In this document: piece after piece, positions 18,968-53,236 of the stretch
Layout of the letters: each line of letters starts with the position of its first letter
Position numbering within the stretch: the stretch's first letter is position 1
IMG/VR virus record: IMGVR_UViG_3300030085_002174
Location: 2,012-60,796 of that record
DNA length: 58,785 bases
DNA from: a virus
Strand: one strand, 5' to 3'
Notes under the pieces: model-generated
What the model saw: only the letters and a program-made list of their open reading frames with translations
Told to the model about the DNA's origin: nothing
Databases searched by the model: none
Program-made: the position numbers and the translations under genes

Positions 18968-20563
18968 ATGCCTGCAATTATATCGGATCAATTTAGGATT
19001 CTCAACGCCGAGAATTTCGTAAAGAATATCACTGGCGCTGGAAATACTACTGACAAGTATTATACGTTCATTGGTATGCCCAATGCGCTGGAACCGACGG
19101 CGGGTGGAACTACTGATTGGACAACTAATACTCCGTCTCCTTTAGACGGATTTAGAGAGGAGTCTGAGATTAAAGACTCTATTATTGCAATGAAACAAAT
19201 TACATCTGAGGATGTAAGGAGATTGGTTAGAAAAGTAGAGTGGACTTCTGGTACTACCTATGAAATGTATAGACATGATTACGATGTCTATAATAGAACT
19301 CCAGTAAGCGAGTCCACTTCACTCTATCAGTCAAACTATTATGTTATCAATGATGACCTGAGAGTTTATATTTGTTTACAAAATGGTACTGATCCAGAGA
19401 ATCCATCTGGCAAACCATCTTACGACCAACCCGATTTTATTGACTTAGAACCAAGAGCTGCTGGTACTTCTGGTGATGGTTATGTTTGGAAATATCTTTA
19501 TACTATCAAACCATCTGAAATTGTAAAGTTCGATTCAATTGAATATATCCCAGTTCCTGAAAATTGGGGTACTTCTGGAGAAAGTATTTCTACAAAGAAT
19601 AATGCTATTGAAGGAAAAATTGAGACTATTCTTATCGATACGAGAGGTTCTAATTATCAACCAATTTCTACATCCTTCTCCAACGTACCTATTTTAGGAG
19701 ATGGTACTGGAGGAAAAGCGACAATTACTATCGATTCCTTCGGAAAGGTGTCTGAAGTATTTGTTACTGATGGAGGAAAAAATTATACTTATGGAACCAT
19801 TCAGTTCTATCCAGGTGCTCCTGAATCTGACGCTGGAGAACCTCTGGCTAATCTAGAAAATACTGGAATCGGTCAAACTGGGTTTGCATCCTTCAAAGTT
19901 ATTATTCCACCAAAAGGTGGTCATGGATATGATGTTTATAGAGAACTTGGAGCATACAGAGTTCTTCTATTTTCAAGATTTGAAACTATTGAAACAAATC
20001 CCGATATTATTTTAGGTAATGACTTTGCTAGAGTAGGTGTAATGAAGAATCCTACCATTCCAGGAAGTCAGACCGAAATTTTAAACCAAAACATGGTTAG
20101 TGGTTTGGGAGCATTAAAATTAACAGGTGTCACAACTGCAACTACATATGCAGTTGACTCTGTAATCAAACAAACTGTGGGTGTCGGATCTACGGCTATT
20201 GGATTTGTTGCTTCTTGGGACAAAACAACTGGAGTTCTTAAGTATTATCAACCAACAGGACTTGCATCTAGTGAGTCTGGATTTAGAATTATTCCCTTTA
20301 CGGCTACACCTGATGCTGGGTATGGAGTAACTGTTGTGTGTTCTTCGATTGTTGGACCTGCGTTAGAAATTGACACTACATTTACAGGTGTAACTACGTC
20401 GATAAATAATAAGATATATCAGTTAGGCCTGGACTTTGTGGCTGGTATCGGTTCTGCCGAATTCAATAGAAAGTCTGGAGAAGTTATCTACATAGATAAC
20501 AGGGCGCCAATTCCGAGATCCGCCAGCCAAAAAGAAGATATCAAAGTTGTACTGGAGTTCTAA
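18968..20563 (+). CDS. 8: Baseplate wedge subunit gp8
   Basis: At 531 residues it is longer than T4 gp8 (334), as in other T4-like cyanophages. Recognisable segments include the N-terminal ISDQFRILNAENFVKNI, KYYTFIGMPNALEP, VEWTSGTTYEMYRHDYD, TSLYQSNYYVINDDLRVYIC and GDGYVWKYLYTIKPSE, which recur in gp8 proteins. In T4, gp8 dimers bind gp10 and gp7 and help form the wedge. The extra length is mainly a GxGYxxPP-like insert at about residues 218-290 (ILIDTRGSNYQPI, then a GTGGKA turn, then EVFVTDGGKNYTYG) that also occurs in other virion proteins here, followed by a beta-rich C-terminal part. It is separated by six bases from the next gene. Confidence 0.85.
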   Translation: MPAIISDQFRILNAENFVKNITGAGNTTDKYYTFIGMPNALEPTAGGTTDWTTNTPSPLDGFREESEIKDSIIAMKQITSEDVRRLVRKVEWTSGTTYEMYRHDYDVYNRTPVSESTSLYQSNYYVINDDLRVYICLQNGTDPENPSGKPSYDQPDFIDLEPRAAGTSGDGYVWKYLYTIKPSEIVKFDSIEYIPVPENWGTSGESISTKNNAIEGKIETILIDTRGSNYQPISTSFSNVPILGDGTGGKATITIDSFGKVSEVFVTDGGKNYTYGTIQFYPGAPESDAGEPLANLENTGIGQTGFASFKVIIPPKGGHGYDVYRELGAYRVLLFSRFETIETNPDIILGNDFARVGVMKNPTIPGSQTEILNQNMVSGLGALKLTGVTTATTYAVDSVIKQTVGVGSTAIGFVASWDKTTGVLKYYQPTGLASSESGFRIIPFTATPDAGYGVTVVCSSIVGPALEIDTTFTGVTTSINNKIYQLGLDFVAGIGSAEFNRKSGEVIYIDNRAPIPRSASQKEDIKVVLEF

Positions 20564-47862: not shown

Positions 47863-48914
47863 TGTTTGGAAATTATTTTTATCACGAAATTATAAGAAAG
47901 ACAATTATTGCTTTCGGAACTCTTTTCAATAATATTGAAATTAAACATAAGGACAAGGCTGGTGGCACTGCCAGCGTTATGAGAGTTCCTATTGCATATG
48001 GACCTATGCAAAAGTTTCTGGCAAGAATAGAACAGTCTCCAACCATTAGAAAAGAAGTTGCAATAACTTTACCAAGAATGTCTTTCGAGATGGTGGGCGT
48101 AAGTTATGATCCCACCAGAAAGTCTTCTACAATGCAAACTTTTAGAGCATTGAATGAAGATAGAAAGTCAGTAACAAAGGCATTCATGCCTGTTCCTTAT
48201 AATGTAAATATCAGATTGTCAGTAATGACAAAACTGAATGAAGATGCTCTTCAAATTGTAGAACAGATTCTACCATATTTTCAACCACATTTTAATTTGA
48301 CCATTGACCTGGTGGAACAAATTGGAGAGAAGAGAGATATTCCAATGGTTTTGAATAGCATCACAATGGATGATGACTATGAGGGAGATTTTACTACTCG
48401 TAGAGTCCTTACTTACACTCTAGATTTTACTGCAAAGACATATCTCTTTGGTCCAGTTGATACTGCTGGTGATATTATTAAGAAAGTTCAAGTTGATTAT
48501 CATACTGGTACAAATATCAAAACACCTTCTAGAGAAGTTAGATATACAGTTACACCTAAAGCACTCAAAGATTATGATGGAGATAAGACAACCAAATTGT
48601 TTGAAGATATTACGGAAAATACAACTGAATTCCAAGTTGAATATGGAACCGAATTGGTTGCAAAATCATACATTCAAATTGGTTCGGAAGTCATGTTTAT
48701 CAGAGAAATTTCTGGTGATACAATAAGAGTAAACAGATCGGAAAATGGAACTGTAGCAACAATTCATGAGATAGCAGATCCCATAAATGTCCTGACACCT
48801 ATAGATGATGAACAGATAGATCTTGATGATGACTTTGGATTCAATGAATCTACGGAGTTATTCACAGACGGCAAAATCTATAGCACCACAAAACAAAAGG
48901 ATGTTGAACCATGA
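47862..48914 (+). CDS. 15: Tail completion and sheath stabiliser gp15
   Basis: A 350-residue protein (T4 gp15 is 272). The N-terminus MFGNYFYHEIIRKTIIAFGT with LFNNIEIKHKDK, the IRVPIxYG-type segment MRVPIAYGPMQKFLARIEQ and the central EDALQIVEQILPYFQPHFN are diagnostic; the last is nearly identical in T4 gp15. gp15 forms the terminator ring on top of sheath and tube and docks the tail to gp13/gp14 in the head. Residues beyond about 240 are an extension ending in acidic, beta-rich sequence (DDEQIDLDDDFGFNE). It overlaps gp14 by one base and gp16 by four bases, so neck and packaging genes are tightly coupled. Confidence 0.92.
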   Translation: MFGNYFYHEIIRKTIIAFGTLFNNIEIKHKDKAGGTASVMRVPIAYGPMQKFLARIEQSPTIRKEVAITLPRMSFEMVGVSYDPTRKSSTMQTFRALNEDRKSVTKAFMPVPYNVNIRLSVMTKLNEDALQIVEQILPYFQPHFNLTIDLVEQIGEKRDIPMVLNSITMDDDYEGDFTTRRVLTYTLDFTAKTYLFGPVDTAGDIIKKVQVDYHTGTNIKTPSREVRYTVTPKALKDYDGDKTTKLFEDITENTTEFQVEYGTELVAKSYIQIGSEVMFIREISGDTIRVNRSENGTVATIHEIADPINVLTPIDDEQIDLDDDFGFNESTELFTDGKIYSTTKQKDVEP

Positions 48915-49339
48915 AATACGATGAGATAGATGATGCATTGGATATTACACCCACCGAAGTAAAGTCGGAAAAAATTGTAAAAAAAGAAAAAGAATCTACT
49001 GAAATTGTTACCACAACTCAAGAACAATTAAAGAAGGATTATGAATACACTCGTGGAAATTTGTACTCTCTTATTGAGAAAGGTCAAGAAGCAGTAGATG
49101 GTATATTAGAACTTGCACAAGAATCAGATTCTCCTAGAGCTTTTGAGGTTGCTGGTCAGTTAATTAAACATGTTGGTGATGTTGCTGACAAATTAGCCGA
49201 TCTACATAAGAAAGTAAAAGACATCGAAAAAGAGGATGGAAAGTCTTCCAAGTCAACAAACGTTACGAACAATGCAGTATTCTTTGGCAGTACAGCGGAT
49301 CTGCAAAAATTTCTTAAGAATAACGACAATTCTAAATAG
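48911..49339 (+). CDS. 16: Terminase small subunit gp16
   Basis: A 142-residue protein (T4 gp16 is 164). Charged N-terminus, then a helical hairpin core: LKKDYEYTRGNLYSLIEKGQ, EAVDGILELAQESDSPRAFE, VAGQLIKHVGDVADKLADLH, and a polar C-terminus with VTNNAVFFGSTADLQKFL. The coiled-coil core and the final N-NAVFFGST-x-(D/E)-LQK motif are typical of gp16 in T4-like marine phages. The small terminase recognises concatemeric DNA and regulates gp17. Its ATG overlaps the gp15 stop by four bases. gp17 is not adjacent: a modular Cys/Lys-rich gene and an NblA-like gene lie between. Confidence 0.9.
   Translation: MKYDEIDDALDITPTEVKSEKIVKKEKESTEIVTTTQEQLKKDYEYTRGNLYSLIEKGQEAVDGILELAQESDSPRAFEVAGQLIKHVGDVADKLADLHKKVKDIEKEDGKSSKSTNVTNNAVFFGSTADLQKFLKNNDNSK
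49331..49338 (+). promoter_or_regulatory. Late-promoter-like element TCTAAATA
   Basis: It shares the TAAATA core of T4 late promoters, covers the stop of gp16 and lies 25 bases before the ATG at 49363. Motif and position only. Confidence 0.4.
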
Positions 49340-49362: not shown

Positions 49363-51210
49363 ATGACTAAAGCAAAGAAGTGTCCCCCTGGGAAATACTG
49401 GTGTTTTACAGATAAAAAGTGTAAGAAAATTCCTACTGGATATCATGTCATGGGAGGAGGTCGTCTTATGAAAGACGAAGATCATGAAGATGGTGAAAAC
49501 GGTAAGAAGAATGGTAAGAAAAATGGAAATGGAAATGGTGACTCCAACGGTGGAGATGGTGGCGGGGTAGCAGAGTCTTCATGTGGTTCTACTAAAAAGA
49601 GGAAAAAGAAATTGGCAGAAGTAAGCACCAAAGGTTACGAATATTCTAATTGGAGAGACGAATTCAAAGCGACTGAAGTCGAGTCGGTAGATATCGTAAC
49701 TCCCGAACCATTACAACCAACTGAAGGTATTGGAAGTAAGATGATTGGTGAAGATTGTTGGGACGGATATGAAAAGAAAGGTATGAAGACTATGTTTGGA
49801 AAGAGGTATCCAAACTGTGTCAAAAAGAAAAAGACCAGAAGTGAAGGCGTTCTCGATGCTGCTTTAGAAACCGATAAGAAGATGGGTGAGTTGCATAAGA
49901 AAGTTGATAAAGATGTTAAACGAATGAAGGCAGGTAAAAAATTCAAAGAAGAAACTGAAGTTCTAGAAAAAGCAATGAGTTGCTGGAAAACTCATAAAAA
50001 AGTTGGTATGAAAATGAAAGGAGGTAAACTTGTCAATGATTGTCGCCCCAAAAACGAAGAATTCAGTGACTGGAGAACAGAACTCGAAGAGGGGAACAAA
50101 AGTGGTGATTCTTCTCTGCGTGACTGGTTTGGCAAGAGTCGTTCTTCTGATGGCACCCCTGGTTGGGTTCAACTGGGCGGCAAATATGCAGGAAAACCCT
50201 GCGCCAAACAACCAGGACAAACAACCAAACCAAAGTGCGGTTCTTCAAAAATGAAGAGAGACCTCAATAAAGATGAGGAAGAAAGAGCATTCCGTCGCAA
50301 GAATCGTCAAGACCCAAACCCAGATAGAAAGGGTAAGGCAAAGAATGTAGCAACAGAGTCTGCAGTACCAGGTAAACCAGCAGAAAAATTAGGTGCAGTA
50401 ACTGCGATTCCTAAGGATGAACGAGATGCAGCAAAGGCACGTTTACTTGCAAAGGCTGCGGCAAAACGTGCAAAGAAAGTAAGTGAGTCATCGGGAGAAG
50501 AAGATCATGAGTTTGAAATGGCTCGTCGTCAACTCTCTACAATGAAGAGTGCGGCAAAAAAACTTGAGAAGAAAATGGGTAAAAAAGGTGAAGGTAATCT
50601 CAAAGCTTGGGTGCAATCAAAAATAACTAAAGCTGCTGATTACGCCGATACCGCTGCAGATTATGTGACTAAGGAAGCTGCTGGTGAAAAGGATGCTTGT
50701 TACCATAAGGTCAAGTCTCGTTACTCTGTATGGCCTTCCGCATATGCATCTGGTGCTTTAGTTAAGTGTCGTAAAAAAGGTGCAAAGAACTGGGGTAATA
50801 AAACTAAGAAAGAAAGTTATTCTTTCGAGATAAACAAATCGGATCATAAAAAACAAACCAAACTAGGAAAGATTAGAAATCTTTCAAAAAAAGGTTCTAC
50901 TGAAGGCGAACGTGCAGCAGCGAAGAGAAAATTAGGTCCATCTCTTCCAAGTGAGTCGGTTATTATGCCTGGTAGTATTCTTCCAGAAGACTATCAGAGA
51001 ATACAGTCATATGGTAATGTTTATACTATAATTGTATTGTGGAGAGGAACCTCTCGTCGTGTTCAATTATTCTTCCAAGGAACGGCAAGACCTTCCCGTG
51101 AAGAAGTTAAAAACGAGGTAGAAAAAATCTACCCAGGCGGAATGGTTTCTTACTATTTTCCAAGTGCTGCCGATCCAGGTCAGCCAATTATCGTTTCTAC
51201 AAGGAGTTAA
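49363..51210 (+). CDS. Modular Cys/Lys-rich phage protein (615 aa)
   Basis: A string of short modules: residues 7-34 CPPGKYWCFTDKKCKKIP-TGYHVMGGG; 49-68 a low-complexity NGKKNGNGNGD spacer; 130-156 GEDCWDGYEKKGMKTMFGKR with YPNCVKKKK; 205-230 a degenerate copy (MSCWKTHKKVGMKMKGG, DCRP); 251-331 SLRDWFGKSRSSDGTPGWV with paired Cys and an Arg-rich tail; 384-438 a helical EMARRQLSTM / NLKAWVQSKITKAADY segment; 444-480 ACYHKVKSRYSVWPSAYASG-ALVKCRKKG; 545-613 YQRIQSYGNVYTIIVLWRG with RPSREEVKNEV. I recall similar modules in proteins of marine T4-like phages, but function is unknown. The charge suggests DNA or capsid-interior contact. Located between gp16 and gp17, so a packaging or head-assembly role is plausible. 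Cys pairs could bind metal. Confidence 0.75.
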   Translation: MTKAKKCPPGKYWCFTDKKCKKIPTGYHVMGGGRLMKDEDHEDGENGKKNGKKNGNGNGDSNGGDGGGVAESSCGSTKKRKKKLAEVSTKGYEYSNWRDEFKATEVESVDIVTPEPLQPTEGIGSKMIGEDCWDGYEKKGMKTMFGKRYPNCVKKKKTRSEGVLDAALETDKKMGELHKKVDKDVKRMKAGKKFKEETEVLEKAMSCWKTHKKVGMKMKGGKLVNDCRPKNEEFSDWRTELEEGNKSGDSSLRDWFGKSRSSDGTPGWVQLGGKYAGKPCAKQPGQTTKPKCGSSKMKRDLNKDEEERAFRRKNRQDPNPDRKGKAKNVATESAVPGKPAEKLGAVTAIPKDERDAAKARLLAKAAAKRAKKVSESSGEEDHEFEMARRQLSTMKSAAKKLEKKMGKKGEGNLKAWVQSKITKAADYADTAADYVTKEAAGEKDACYHKVKSRYSVWPSAYASGALVKCRKKGAKNWGNKTKKESYSFEINKSDHKKQTKLGKIRNLSKKGSTEGERAAAKRKLGPSLPSESVIMPGSILPEDYQRIQSYGNVYTIIVLWRGTSRRVQLFFQGTARPSREEVKNEVEKIYPGGMVSYYFPSAADPGQPIIVSTRS

Positions 51211-51212
51211 TT

Positions 51213-51380
51213 ATGCAAGACAACATCGAACTTTCAAGTCTGAACAAAGCACTTGAGTACGAACGTCAATCTAGAGAGATTGATAAAATGACTCTTGAAG
51301 AGGCAAGAGAGTTCGCAAAGTCTTACCTAAAACTCTATTTTAAACAACAAGAAGTAATCGGTTCTATAGCAAACATGTGA
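51213..51380 (+). CDS. NblA-like small protein (55 aa), possible phycobilisome-degradation adaptor
   Basis: ATG 51213 to TGA 51378-51380, with a strong AAGGAG site at 51201-51206. The protein is two helices: NIELSSLNKALEYERQSREI, then DKMTLEEAREFAKSYLKLYF, ending KQQEVIGSIANM. NblA proteins (about 60 residues, helix-turn-helix) share the start (I/L)ELS, a first helix with Phe/Arg, a turn (N/K)M(S/T)xxxA(K/R)(D/E)F and a second helix of aromatic and basic residues. The match to the cyanobacterial pattern is short but runs in order over nearly the whole length. NblA links phycobilisome subunits to Clp protease; marine cyanophage NblA genes have been reported. It could instead be an unrelated helical hairpin, perhaps a terminase cofactor given its position before gp17. 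Confidence 0.5.
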   Translation: MQDNIELSSLNKALEYERQSREIDKMTLEEAREFAKSYLKLYFKQQEVIGSIANM

Positions 51381-51384
51381 TTTT

Positions 51385-51921
51385 ATGAGTGAAGTATATC
51401 TTGGTAATCCTAATCTAAAAAAAGCGAATACACCGATTGAATTTACAGAGGAACAAGTTATTGAGTTCCTCAAATGTAAAGACGATCCTGTTTATTTTGC
51501 AAACAACTATATTAAGATTGTTTCTCTTGATGAGGGTTTGACGCAATTCCACCCTTATCATTTCCAAGAAAAACTTATCAATAATTTCCATGCGAATAGA
51601 TTTAATATTTGCAAAATGCCAAGACAAACTGGCAAGTCCACTACTGTGGTATCTTACCTTTTACATTACGCTGTTTTTAACGATAGTGTTAATATTGGCA
51701 TCCTAGCAAACAAAGCGGCAACTGCAAGAGAACTTCTCGGAAGATTACAAACTGCATACGAGAACTTACCAAAATGGATGCAACAGGGTATTATAGCCTG
51801 GAACAAAGGATCAATGGAGTTGGAGAATGGCAGTAAGATATTGGCAGCTTCTACGTCTGCGAGTGCTGTCCGAGGTATGTCATTTAACATCCTCTTTCTT
51901 CTGGTAAAAACACCAAAGTAA
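51385..51921 (+). pseudogene. 17: Terminase large subunit gp17, N-terminal ATPase fragment (frame broken)
   Basis: The N-terminal part of gp17. Residues 1-75 precede the Walker A loop KMPRQTGKST (78-86). Downstream are NIGILANKAATARELLGRL, then KWMQQGIIAWNKGS and ILAASTSASAVRGMSFNILFL (quoted in part: ASTSASAVRGMSFNILFL), which leads into Walker B in T4 gp17. Here the frame leaves the family sequence straight after NILFL: the expected D-E carboxylates and about 20 residues after them are absent, and the frame ends as LVKTPK at TAA 51919-51921. The rest continues in another frame at 51897. The fragment could not hydrolyse ATP normally. Sequence or assembly error and real deletion are both possible. 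Confidence 0.88.
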
Positions 51922-51944
51922 TTATTGTATCTACCCCACATGGT

Positions 51945-52961
51945 ATGAATCACTTCTACCGTATGTGGCATGATGCGGAAAAGGCTAAGAACGATTATAT
52001 TCCAACTGATGTTCACTGGTCCGAAGTCCCAGGTAGGGATTTAAAGTGGAAAGAACAAACAATTAAAAACACATCAGAACAACAGTTTAAGATTGAGTTT
52101 GAGTGTGAGTTCTTAGGATCTATCGATACTTTGATTTCTGCAGCGAAATTAAAAGCACTTGTTTATGATGATCCAATCAAGAGAAATGCTGGATTGGATA
52201 TCTACGAAGAACCAAAAGAAGATCATACTTATGTTGTCACTGTTGACGTTGCGAGAGGAGTAGATAAAGATTACTCTGCGTTCTGTGTATGTGACACCAC
52301 TACATTTCCATATAGATTAGTAGCTAAGTATAGAAACAATCAGATCAAACCAATTCTTTTTCCTAATATTATCCGAGACGTATCGAAGGCATATAACCAA
52401 GCATTCATACTAGTAGAAGTAAATGATATCGGAGATCAAGTTGCATCTATTTTGCACATGGATCTTGAGTACGATAATATATTGATGTGTTCCATGAGAG
52501 GTCGTGCTGGTCAGGTAGTAGGTCAAGGATTCTCAGGAAAGAAGACACAATTGGGTGTCAAAATGTCCAAGACAGTAAAGAAGATTGGATCTCTAAACCT
52601 GAAAGCCTTAATAGAAGATGATAAGTTATTTGTACAAGATTTAGATGTAATTAGTGAACTAACTACTTTTATACAAAAGGCTGGATCATTTGAGGCTGAA
52701 GAAGGCTGTAATGATGACCTTGCAATGTGTCTTGTTATATTTGCGTGGTTAGTTCAACAGGATTACTTCAAAGAGATGACGGATAATGATGTCCGTAAAA
52801 AAATATATGAAGATCAAAGAGATCAAATTGAAGCTGACATGGCTCCATTTGGATTCATCAGTGATGGATTAAATGATGAGGGAAGTTTTGTTGATCCAGA
52901 GGGTCAAGTTTGGCATACAGATGAATATGGAGATATGTCATATATGTGGGAATATAATTGA
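51945..52961 (+). pseudogene. 17: Terminase large subunit gp17, C-terminal nuclease fragment
   Basis: The rest of gp17. The homologous frame begins by 51897 (SSGKNTKVIIVSTPHGMNHF), upstream of the first ATG at 51945, so that ATG is a codon of the full gene rather than a real start. The RNase-H-like nuclease is complete: VVTVDVARGVDKDYSAF (D101 in this ORF), ILVEVNDIGDQV (E158) and GCNDDLAMCLVIFAWL (D257/D258) correspond to the metal-binding residues of T4 gp17. TPHGMNHFY is the coupling motif of the ATPase. In the full protein this part cuts DNA during headful packaging. Adding both parts and the missing stretch gives about 545 residues, a normal gp17 size. Its stop overlaps the next ATG by one base. 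Confidence 0.88.
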
Positions 52962-53188
52962 TGTCTTTTGAAGAATCTTTTGAATTAGAACACTTATTTC
53001 TTACTGAAAGAAAGTGTAAGAAGTGTAGACAAACAAAAAATTTACTAACTGATTTTTATTTAACGAGAAAAGATAGAGGTACACTTCCCTCTGCATATTC
53101 ATATGAATGTAAAGAATGCACGGTAAGAAGAATAAAAGAATCACGGATTAAAAACAAAACAGTTTTCTGGGAATATCCAGACTGGTAG
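52961..53188 (+). CDS. Small zinc-ribbon-like protein (75 aa)
   Basis: The start is taken as ATG 52961, overlapping the gp17 stop by one base; a TTG three bases earlier is less likely. The core is KCKKCRQTKNLLTDFYLTRK followed by YSYECKECTVRRIKESR, giving two CxxC pairs 29 residues apart, a zinc-ribbon pattern. The same C-x2-C-x4-K-x4-FY-x(n)-C-x2-C arrangement is found at the front of HNH endonucleases and in small stand-alone phage proteins. No HNH residues follow, since the protein ends VFWEYPDW. It may be a stand-alone DNA-binding zinc protein or a remnant of a homing endonuclease. Confidence 0.65.
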   Translation: MSFEESFELEHLFLTERKCKKCRQTKNLLTDFYLTRKDRGTLPSAYSYECKECTVRRIKESRIKNKTVFWEYPDW

Positions 53189-53228: not shown

Positions 53229-53236
53229 TCTAAATA
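53229..53236 (+). promoter_or_regulatory. Late-promoter-like element TCTAAATA before gp18
   Basis: It carries the TAAATA core and lies 37 bases before the gp18 ATG in an 85-base gap that holds no gene. A strong ribosome binding site AGAGGGG (53261-53267) follows. The tail sheath is needed in many copies, so a dedicated promoter would be expected. Confidence 0.45.

Follow-up and report, generated by a model that had tools for sequence, protein, structure and literature searches.

A 55-residue gene in a T4-like Synechococcus phage probably encodes a divergent NblA-type proteolysis adaptor that is made late. The window, that is, the whole stretch of 58,785 nucleotides that was analysed, makes up most of a 60.8-kb virus record. 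The adaptor reading was preferred because the 84%-identical copy in phage S-SCSM2R and the copy in S-SCSM1 are already called NblA and nblA, and because the restriction to Synechococcus phages, the profile score, the NblA-like helices, the register and the late motif upstream all point the same way. Against it stand the lack of a match to PF04485, the replacement of the motif in the ClpC region, the failure to keep the Lys53 position and a low hhalign probability. If the reading is right, the protein would be made late in infection, would pair into a four-helix dimer and would bring phycobilisome proteins of the host to ClpC/ClpP. The resulting breakdown of the antenna would release amino acids and reduce light capture during virion assembly. 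Coordinates are given in Table 1.

Table 1. Positions of the NblA-like gene, its neighbours and the putative late promoters in the window, and of a longer family variant elsewhere.
Feature	Position	Strand	Basis or remark
Late-promoter-type motifs CTAAATA/NATAAATA	18937, 29334, 33901, 44770, 49332, 53230, 56425, 58112	almost only +	
gp16, terminase small subunit	48911..49339	+	phrog_445, E 2.6e-54
Late-promoter-type motif CTAAATA	49332..49338	+	~25 nt upstream of 615-aa ORF
615-aa ORF (orf615); homologues annotated virion or tail fibre protein	49363..51210	+	phrog_727 (unknown function), E 3e-95
Shine-Dalgarno AAGGAG of NblA-like gene	51201..51206	+	within 3' end of upstream 615-aa gene
NblA-like gene, 55 aa	51213..51380	+	ORF; phrog_27081, E 6.2e-15; dN/dS ~0.09; two-helix model
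gp17 (terminase large subunit), broken; parts at 51385-51921 and 51945-52961	51385..52961	+	phrog_5989, E 1.9e-58; phrog_2, E 3.7e-30; alignment
Endonuclease VII-like gene, end of the NblA-like gene's unit	52958..53188	+	phrog_4723, E 2.2e-34
134-aa family variant	L027:1240-1644; also L028, L030, L031, L034, L042, L043, L047, L048, L049		

The protein is a member of a cyanophage NblA-like family, phrog_27081, and not an established member of PF04485, because the N-terminal signature and the C-terminal LLKxxW of NblA are missing and the family has its own K-L-Y-x-K-Q-Q-E block instead. The phrog_27081 profile, whose function is listed as unknown, matched residues 3-52 of the 55 and also matched every one of the 28 aligned family members. 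The family pattern I-x-L, K-x-(F/L)-E-Y-E, R-x-I-D, K-x-Y-x-K-L-Y-x-K-Q-Q-E, taken from the columns of 71 sequences, is present in the window protein. At least 477 stretches in viral contigs are related to the gene, and 22 close relatives with 82-93% identity were found in such contigs. When 50,697 phage records were searched, the matches at E < 1e-3 came exclusively from Synechococcus phages and none came from phages of other hosts. The original prediction had named a presence of the ORF throughout phages whose hosts lack phycobilisomes as evidence against itself, and no such distribution was seen. No member was found in Prochlorococcus phages, but this is not significant since there are only 24 such records and the gene is rare overall. 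A 2010 comparison of marine cyanomyoviruses states that nblA was not seen in marine cyanophages (PMC3037559); the marine phage S-SM2, sequenced by 2010, has a member of the family, GC 1205. One family member (L062:3001-3156) lies on a contig filed as a Euryarchaeota archaeon MAG, NZRR01000014.1, which is probably a wrongly binned cyanophage contig.

Homologues in named phages were compared with the window protein. The S-SCSM2R protein (XQU50031.1) is 55 aa long, 84% identical and likewise encoded between an orf615 homologue and gp17, but one extra ORF separates it from gp17 and its Shine-Dalgarno sequence is another one. The S-SCSM1 homologue (QFG06501.1), equal in length and 53% identical over 91%, was described as nblA in a publication that relied on an HHpred match and grouped it, alongside S-TIM5 and homologues from cyanomyoviruses, in a cluster with picocyanobacterial nblA (PMC9602691). 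Its gene is not beside gp17 but is flanked by a virion protein gene on one side and a helicase/2OG-oxygenase cluster on the other. S-TIM5 is predicted to carry an nblA (PMC9602691), and the NblA profile gave no other candidate in that phage; the homologue in S-TIM5 and S-TIM54 (YP_007006038.1, UYE97210.1) is 54 aa long and 49-51% identical, but its gene has tRNA, glutaredoxin and small accessory genes as neighbours. Since the S-SCSM2R copy and the S-SCSM1 homologue already bear the label, identification as NblA is not new: the kind of gene and even its locus had been annotated. The novelty implied by the original prediction is therefore lost, as S-SCSM2R has an annotated NblA at the equivalent place. 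Its central claim, that the ORF is NblA-like, held in part. The name agrees with the S-SCSM2R annotation and the S-SCSM1 HHpred assignment, and the profile and structure tests lean the same way, but Pfam NblA matched none of the 28 members and the N-terminal NblA motif is absent.

The search with the NblA Pfam profile, which had been proposed as a check, failed for all 28 members scanned: neither the window ORF nor 27 relatives matched PF04485 at E up to 10. The NblA profile also had no match in the 60.8-kb virus record, while the S. elongatus control did match, and it matched no family member in a search of ten phage genomes. A sequence-profile search of the PDB with the window protein returned chance matches only and no NblA chain, and single-sequence profile searches gave no significant match to the family of Ma-LMM01 and cyanobacterial NblA (PF04485; PDB 1ojh, 2q8v, 3cs5). 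The window protein resembles those NblA proteins in length, in its helix-loop-helix form and in the IDKMTLE-AR motif over the loop, where Ma-LMM01 NblA reads IDKMTLEQARDRLK and the window protein IDKMTLEEAREFAK; it differs from them in lacking both the N-terminal LEQxF..R and the C-terminal LLKxxW.

The two families were then compared as profiles, one of 16 non-redundant NblA sequences drawn from phages, plasmids and the PDB, the other of 71 family members. In hhalign the two profiles scored 22.8 (P 2.6e-4), with a local alignment spanning columns 1-41 against 2-39 and a global alignment running end to end. By comparison, the scores of 300 column-shuffled NblA profiles averaged 9.7 and peaked at 18.3, and the highest score among 27 families of small phage ORFs used as decoys was 16.5. 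The best ungapped register of the two profiles was an offset of 2, the same as predicted from the helix ends of the models. This comparison supports NblA kinship but does not prove it, because the probability that hhalign itself assigns to the match stays at 5-12% under other settings. The NblA profile also matched a stretch antisense to uvsW in S-SM2 with an E-value of 8e-6 (L186; NC_015279.1 106156-106272, minus strand). This candidate was taken as chance, and it shows that short helical profiles are prone to noise.

Structure prediction, which covered monomers, was in line with the original prediction that the ORF has the two-helix build of NblA; the motif that the prediction quoted is likewise real. 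The AlphaFold2 model of the window protein has helices at residues 10-24 and 28-53 (mean pLDDT 85), and that of a bona fide viral NblA used as a control (L100) has them at 8-22 and 26-54. In both models the first helix is 15 residues and the loop 3 residues long, and the second helices are nearly equal in length. Foldseek searches of the PDB and BFVD gave no useful match for the window protein. The true NblA control did no better, even missing 1ojh, 2q8v and 3cs5, and so the Foldseek result says nothing either way and the method is uninformative at such a protein size. Taken together, the profile-profile score, the NblA-like helix lengths and loop and the agreement in register favour remote homology of the family to true NblA, although the kinship would be distant.

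The surrounding genes are the virion module of a T4-like cyanophage, in the order gp13, gp14, gp15, gp16, orf615, NblA-like gene, gp17, endonuclease VII, gp18 and portal. The late promoter reported for cyanomyoviruses is NATAAATA (PMC2984593). In the window, late motifs stand about 24-50 nt before the starts at 18968, 29385, 33945, 44805, 49363, 53274, 56461 and 58146, and CTAAATA itself occurs less often than chance would predict (6 times, with 14 expected). The copy at 49332 is kept in six relatives (L002, L004, L007, L008, L011 and L051), about 30 nt ahead of their orf615 homologue, and it likely heads the unit from which the NblA-like gene is transcribed. The next late motif is the one at 53230, before gp18. 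None was found between 49338 and the NblA-like ORF, so orf615, the NblA-like gene, gp17 and endonuclease VII most likely form a single late unit. Late expression is likely on the strength of the conserved late-promoter motif that precedes this unit.

The original prediction implied that a place within the virion operon was peculiar to this phage. Placement in the virion module is instead the rule for the family and not special to the window phage: 117 of 140 family loci lie there, with 44 immediately ahead of gp17 and 73 at most 4 kb upstream of gp13. A further 21 show neither placement in the flanking sequence covered and 2 end too early to tell; the 140 are loci and not independent phages, some being one contig fetched twice. 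No description of this family-wide siting under a conserved late motif was found in the literature consulted. Such a placement, together with the tight translational packing with gp17, the common late unit and the lack of a Pfam NblA match, could also be explained if the protein were a small accessory that helps to assemble virions or package DNA, such as a helical chaperone working with gp13 or gp17, and if its likeness to NblA were one of helix-loop-helix form only. We consider this explanation unlikely. The family occurs in only about two dozen of the 482 phage records that match a query with the gp16-gp18 region, and T4-like phages with this module whose hosts are not cyanobacteria yielded no homologue. 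The restriction of the family to Synechococcus phages is a further point against this explanation. In S-TIM5, S-SCSM1, S-SKS1, Sf-FS3, DSL-LC03 and S-B43 the gene lies away from gp13 and gp17, often near metabolic or small accessory genes, and the NblA profile score exceeds those of all the decoys.

Returning to the NblA-type adaptor, a summary of Nadel et al. 2025 states that viral NblA is regarded as lowering oceanic light harvesting (PMC12892361). Should these proteins act as NblA does, the T4-like cyanophages that carry them, a large group missed by Pfam, would join that account, and the late-promoter placement would predict antenna loss during virion assembly. We tentatively suggest, as a possibility that we do not yet favour, that the family is a distinct adaptor lineage, too diverged for the NblA profile. 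In many T4-like Synechococcus phages it would form part of the late programme of virion assembly, encoded next to gp13 or gp17, and would time antenna destruction with capsid filling and not with early takeover.

The two ends of the protein depart from NblA in different ways. In place of the N-terminal motif L-x-EQ-x-F-x-x-R, which is absent, the 71 family sequences have L-x4-K-x-F-E-Y-E-K; in the NblA set the E of this motif is found in 16 of 16 sequences and the Q in 15 of 16. The N-terminal region of NblA has been reported to bind ClpC (PMC4103541). At the other end, the LLKxxW of NblA is missing from the family, which has a near-invariant K-L-Y-x-K-Q-Q-E block instead. The C-terminal phycobiliprotein contact of NblA reportedly involves Leu51 and Lys53 (Anabaena numbering), as described by Bienert in 2006. 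All 71 family sequences have L, I, F or M at the Leu51 position; at the Lys53 position the window protein has N, and 8 of the 71 have K. Another possible explanation is a Clp adaptor that derives from NblA or resembles it, but in which the C-terminal phycobiliprotein contact has changed and the target is something other than the phycobilisome. The conserved KLY-KQQEV block without an NblA counterpart and the Lys53 position that is not kept would fit such a change, as would the extra C-terminal domain of the 134-aa variant. The restriction to Synechococcus phages, which fits a phycobilisome target, and the L-A-K retained at the Leu51-Lys53 equivalent in relatives L111, L129 and L154 speak against it, and we regard it as slightly more doubtful than a virion accessory. 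The extra domain of the variant is about 75 aa long and had no Pfam match, and no gp13-gp18 homologue was seen in the flanks of the variant loci.

The gene itself was found where the original prediction had put a 55-residue ORF between structural and packaging genes, with an ATG at 51213, a TGA at 51380 and the product MQDNIELSSLNKALEYERQSREIDKMTLEEAREFAKSYLKLYFKQQEVIGSIANM. It starts 2 nt past the stop of the 615-aa ORF (51210) and ends 4 nt before the start of gp17 (51385). Its Shine-Dalgarno sequence, with an anti-SD duplex energy of -7.8 kcal/mol, ranks third among 24 gene starts, in agreement with the earlier description of it as one of the strongest ribosome binding sites in the window, and both this sequence and the start codon are kept in close relatives. 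Compared with relative L001, there are 4, 3 and 10 differences at codon positions 1, 2 and 3 (dN 0.043, dS 0.49), and dN/dS is about 0.09 against the nearest relatives, L001 and L008. Because these differences fall mostly at third codon positions, the ORF encodes a selected protein; it is a real gene, tightly packed between its neighbours. The idea of a chance open frame with no product, which the shortness of the ORF might invite, was ruled out by the codon pattern and has practically no probability left given the purifying selection, the conserved Shine-Dalgarno sequence and the number of related stretches in viral contigs.

Some features of the adjoining genes were also recorded. The lysine-rich 615-aa ORF varies greatly in length and identity among close relatives, its N terminus being better conserved. 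About 273 extra nt are present between the NblA-like gene and gp17 in L001, L004 and L050, and likewise in S-SCSM2R (ORF 119), which suggests that this is an insertion site for small genes. The window copy of gp17 lacks 70 nt at about 51897 and is frameshifted as a result; the missing stretch encodes DEFAFVPNHVADDFFASVYPTIT, in the Walker B region. Since all the relatives examined (L007, L009, L011 and L019) keep the 70-nt stretch, the broken gp17 is likely an assembly error or the mark of a defective genome.
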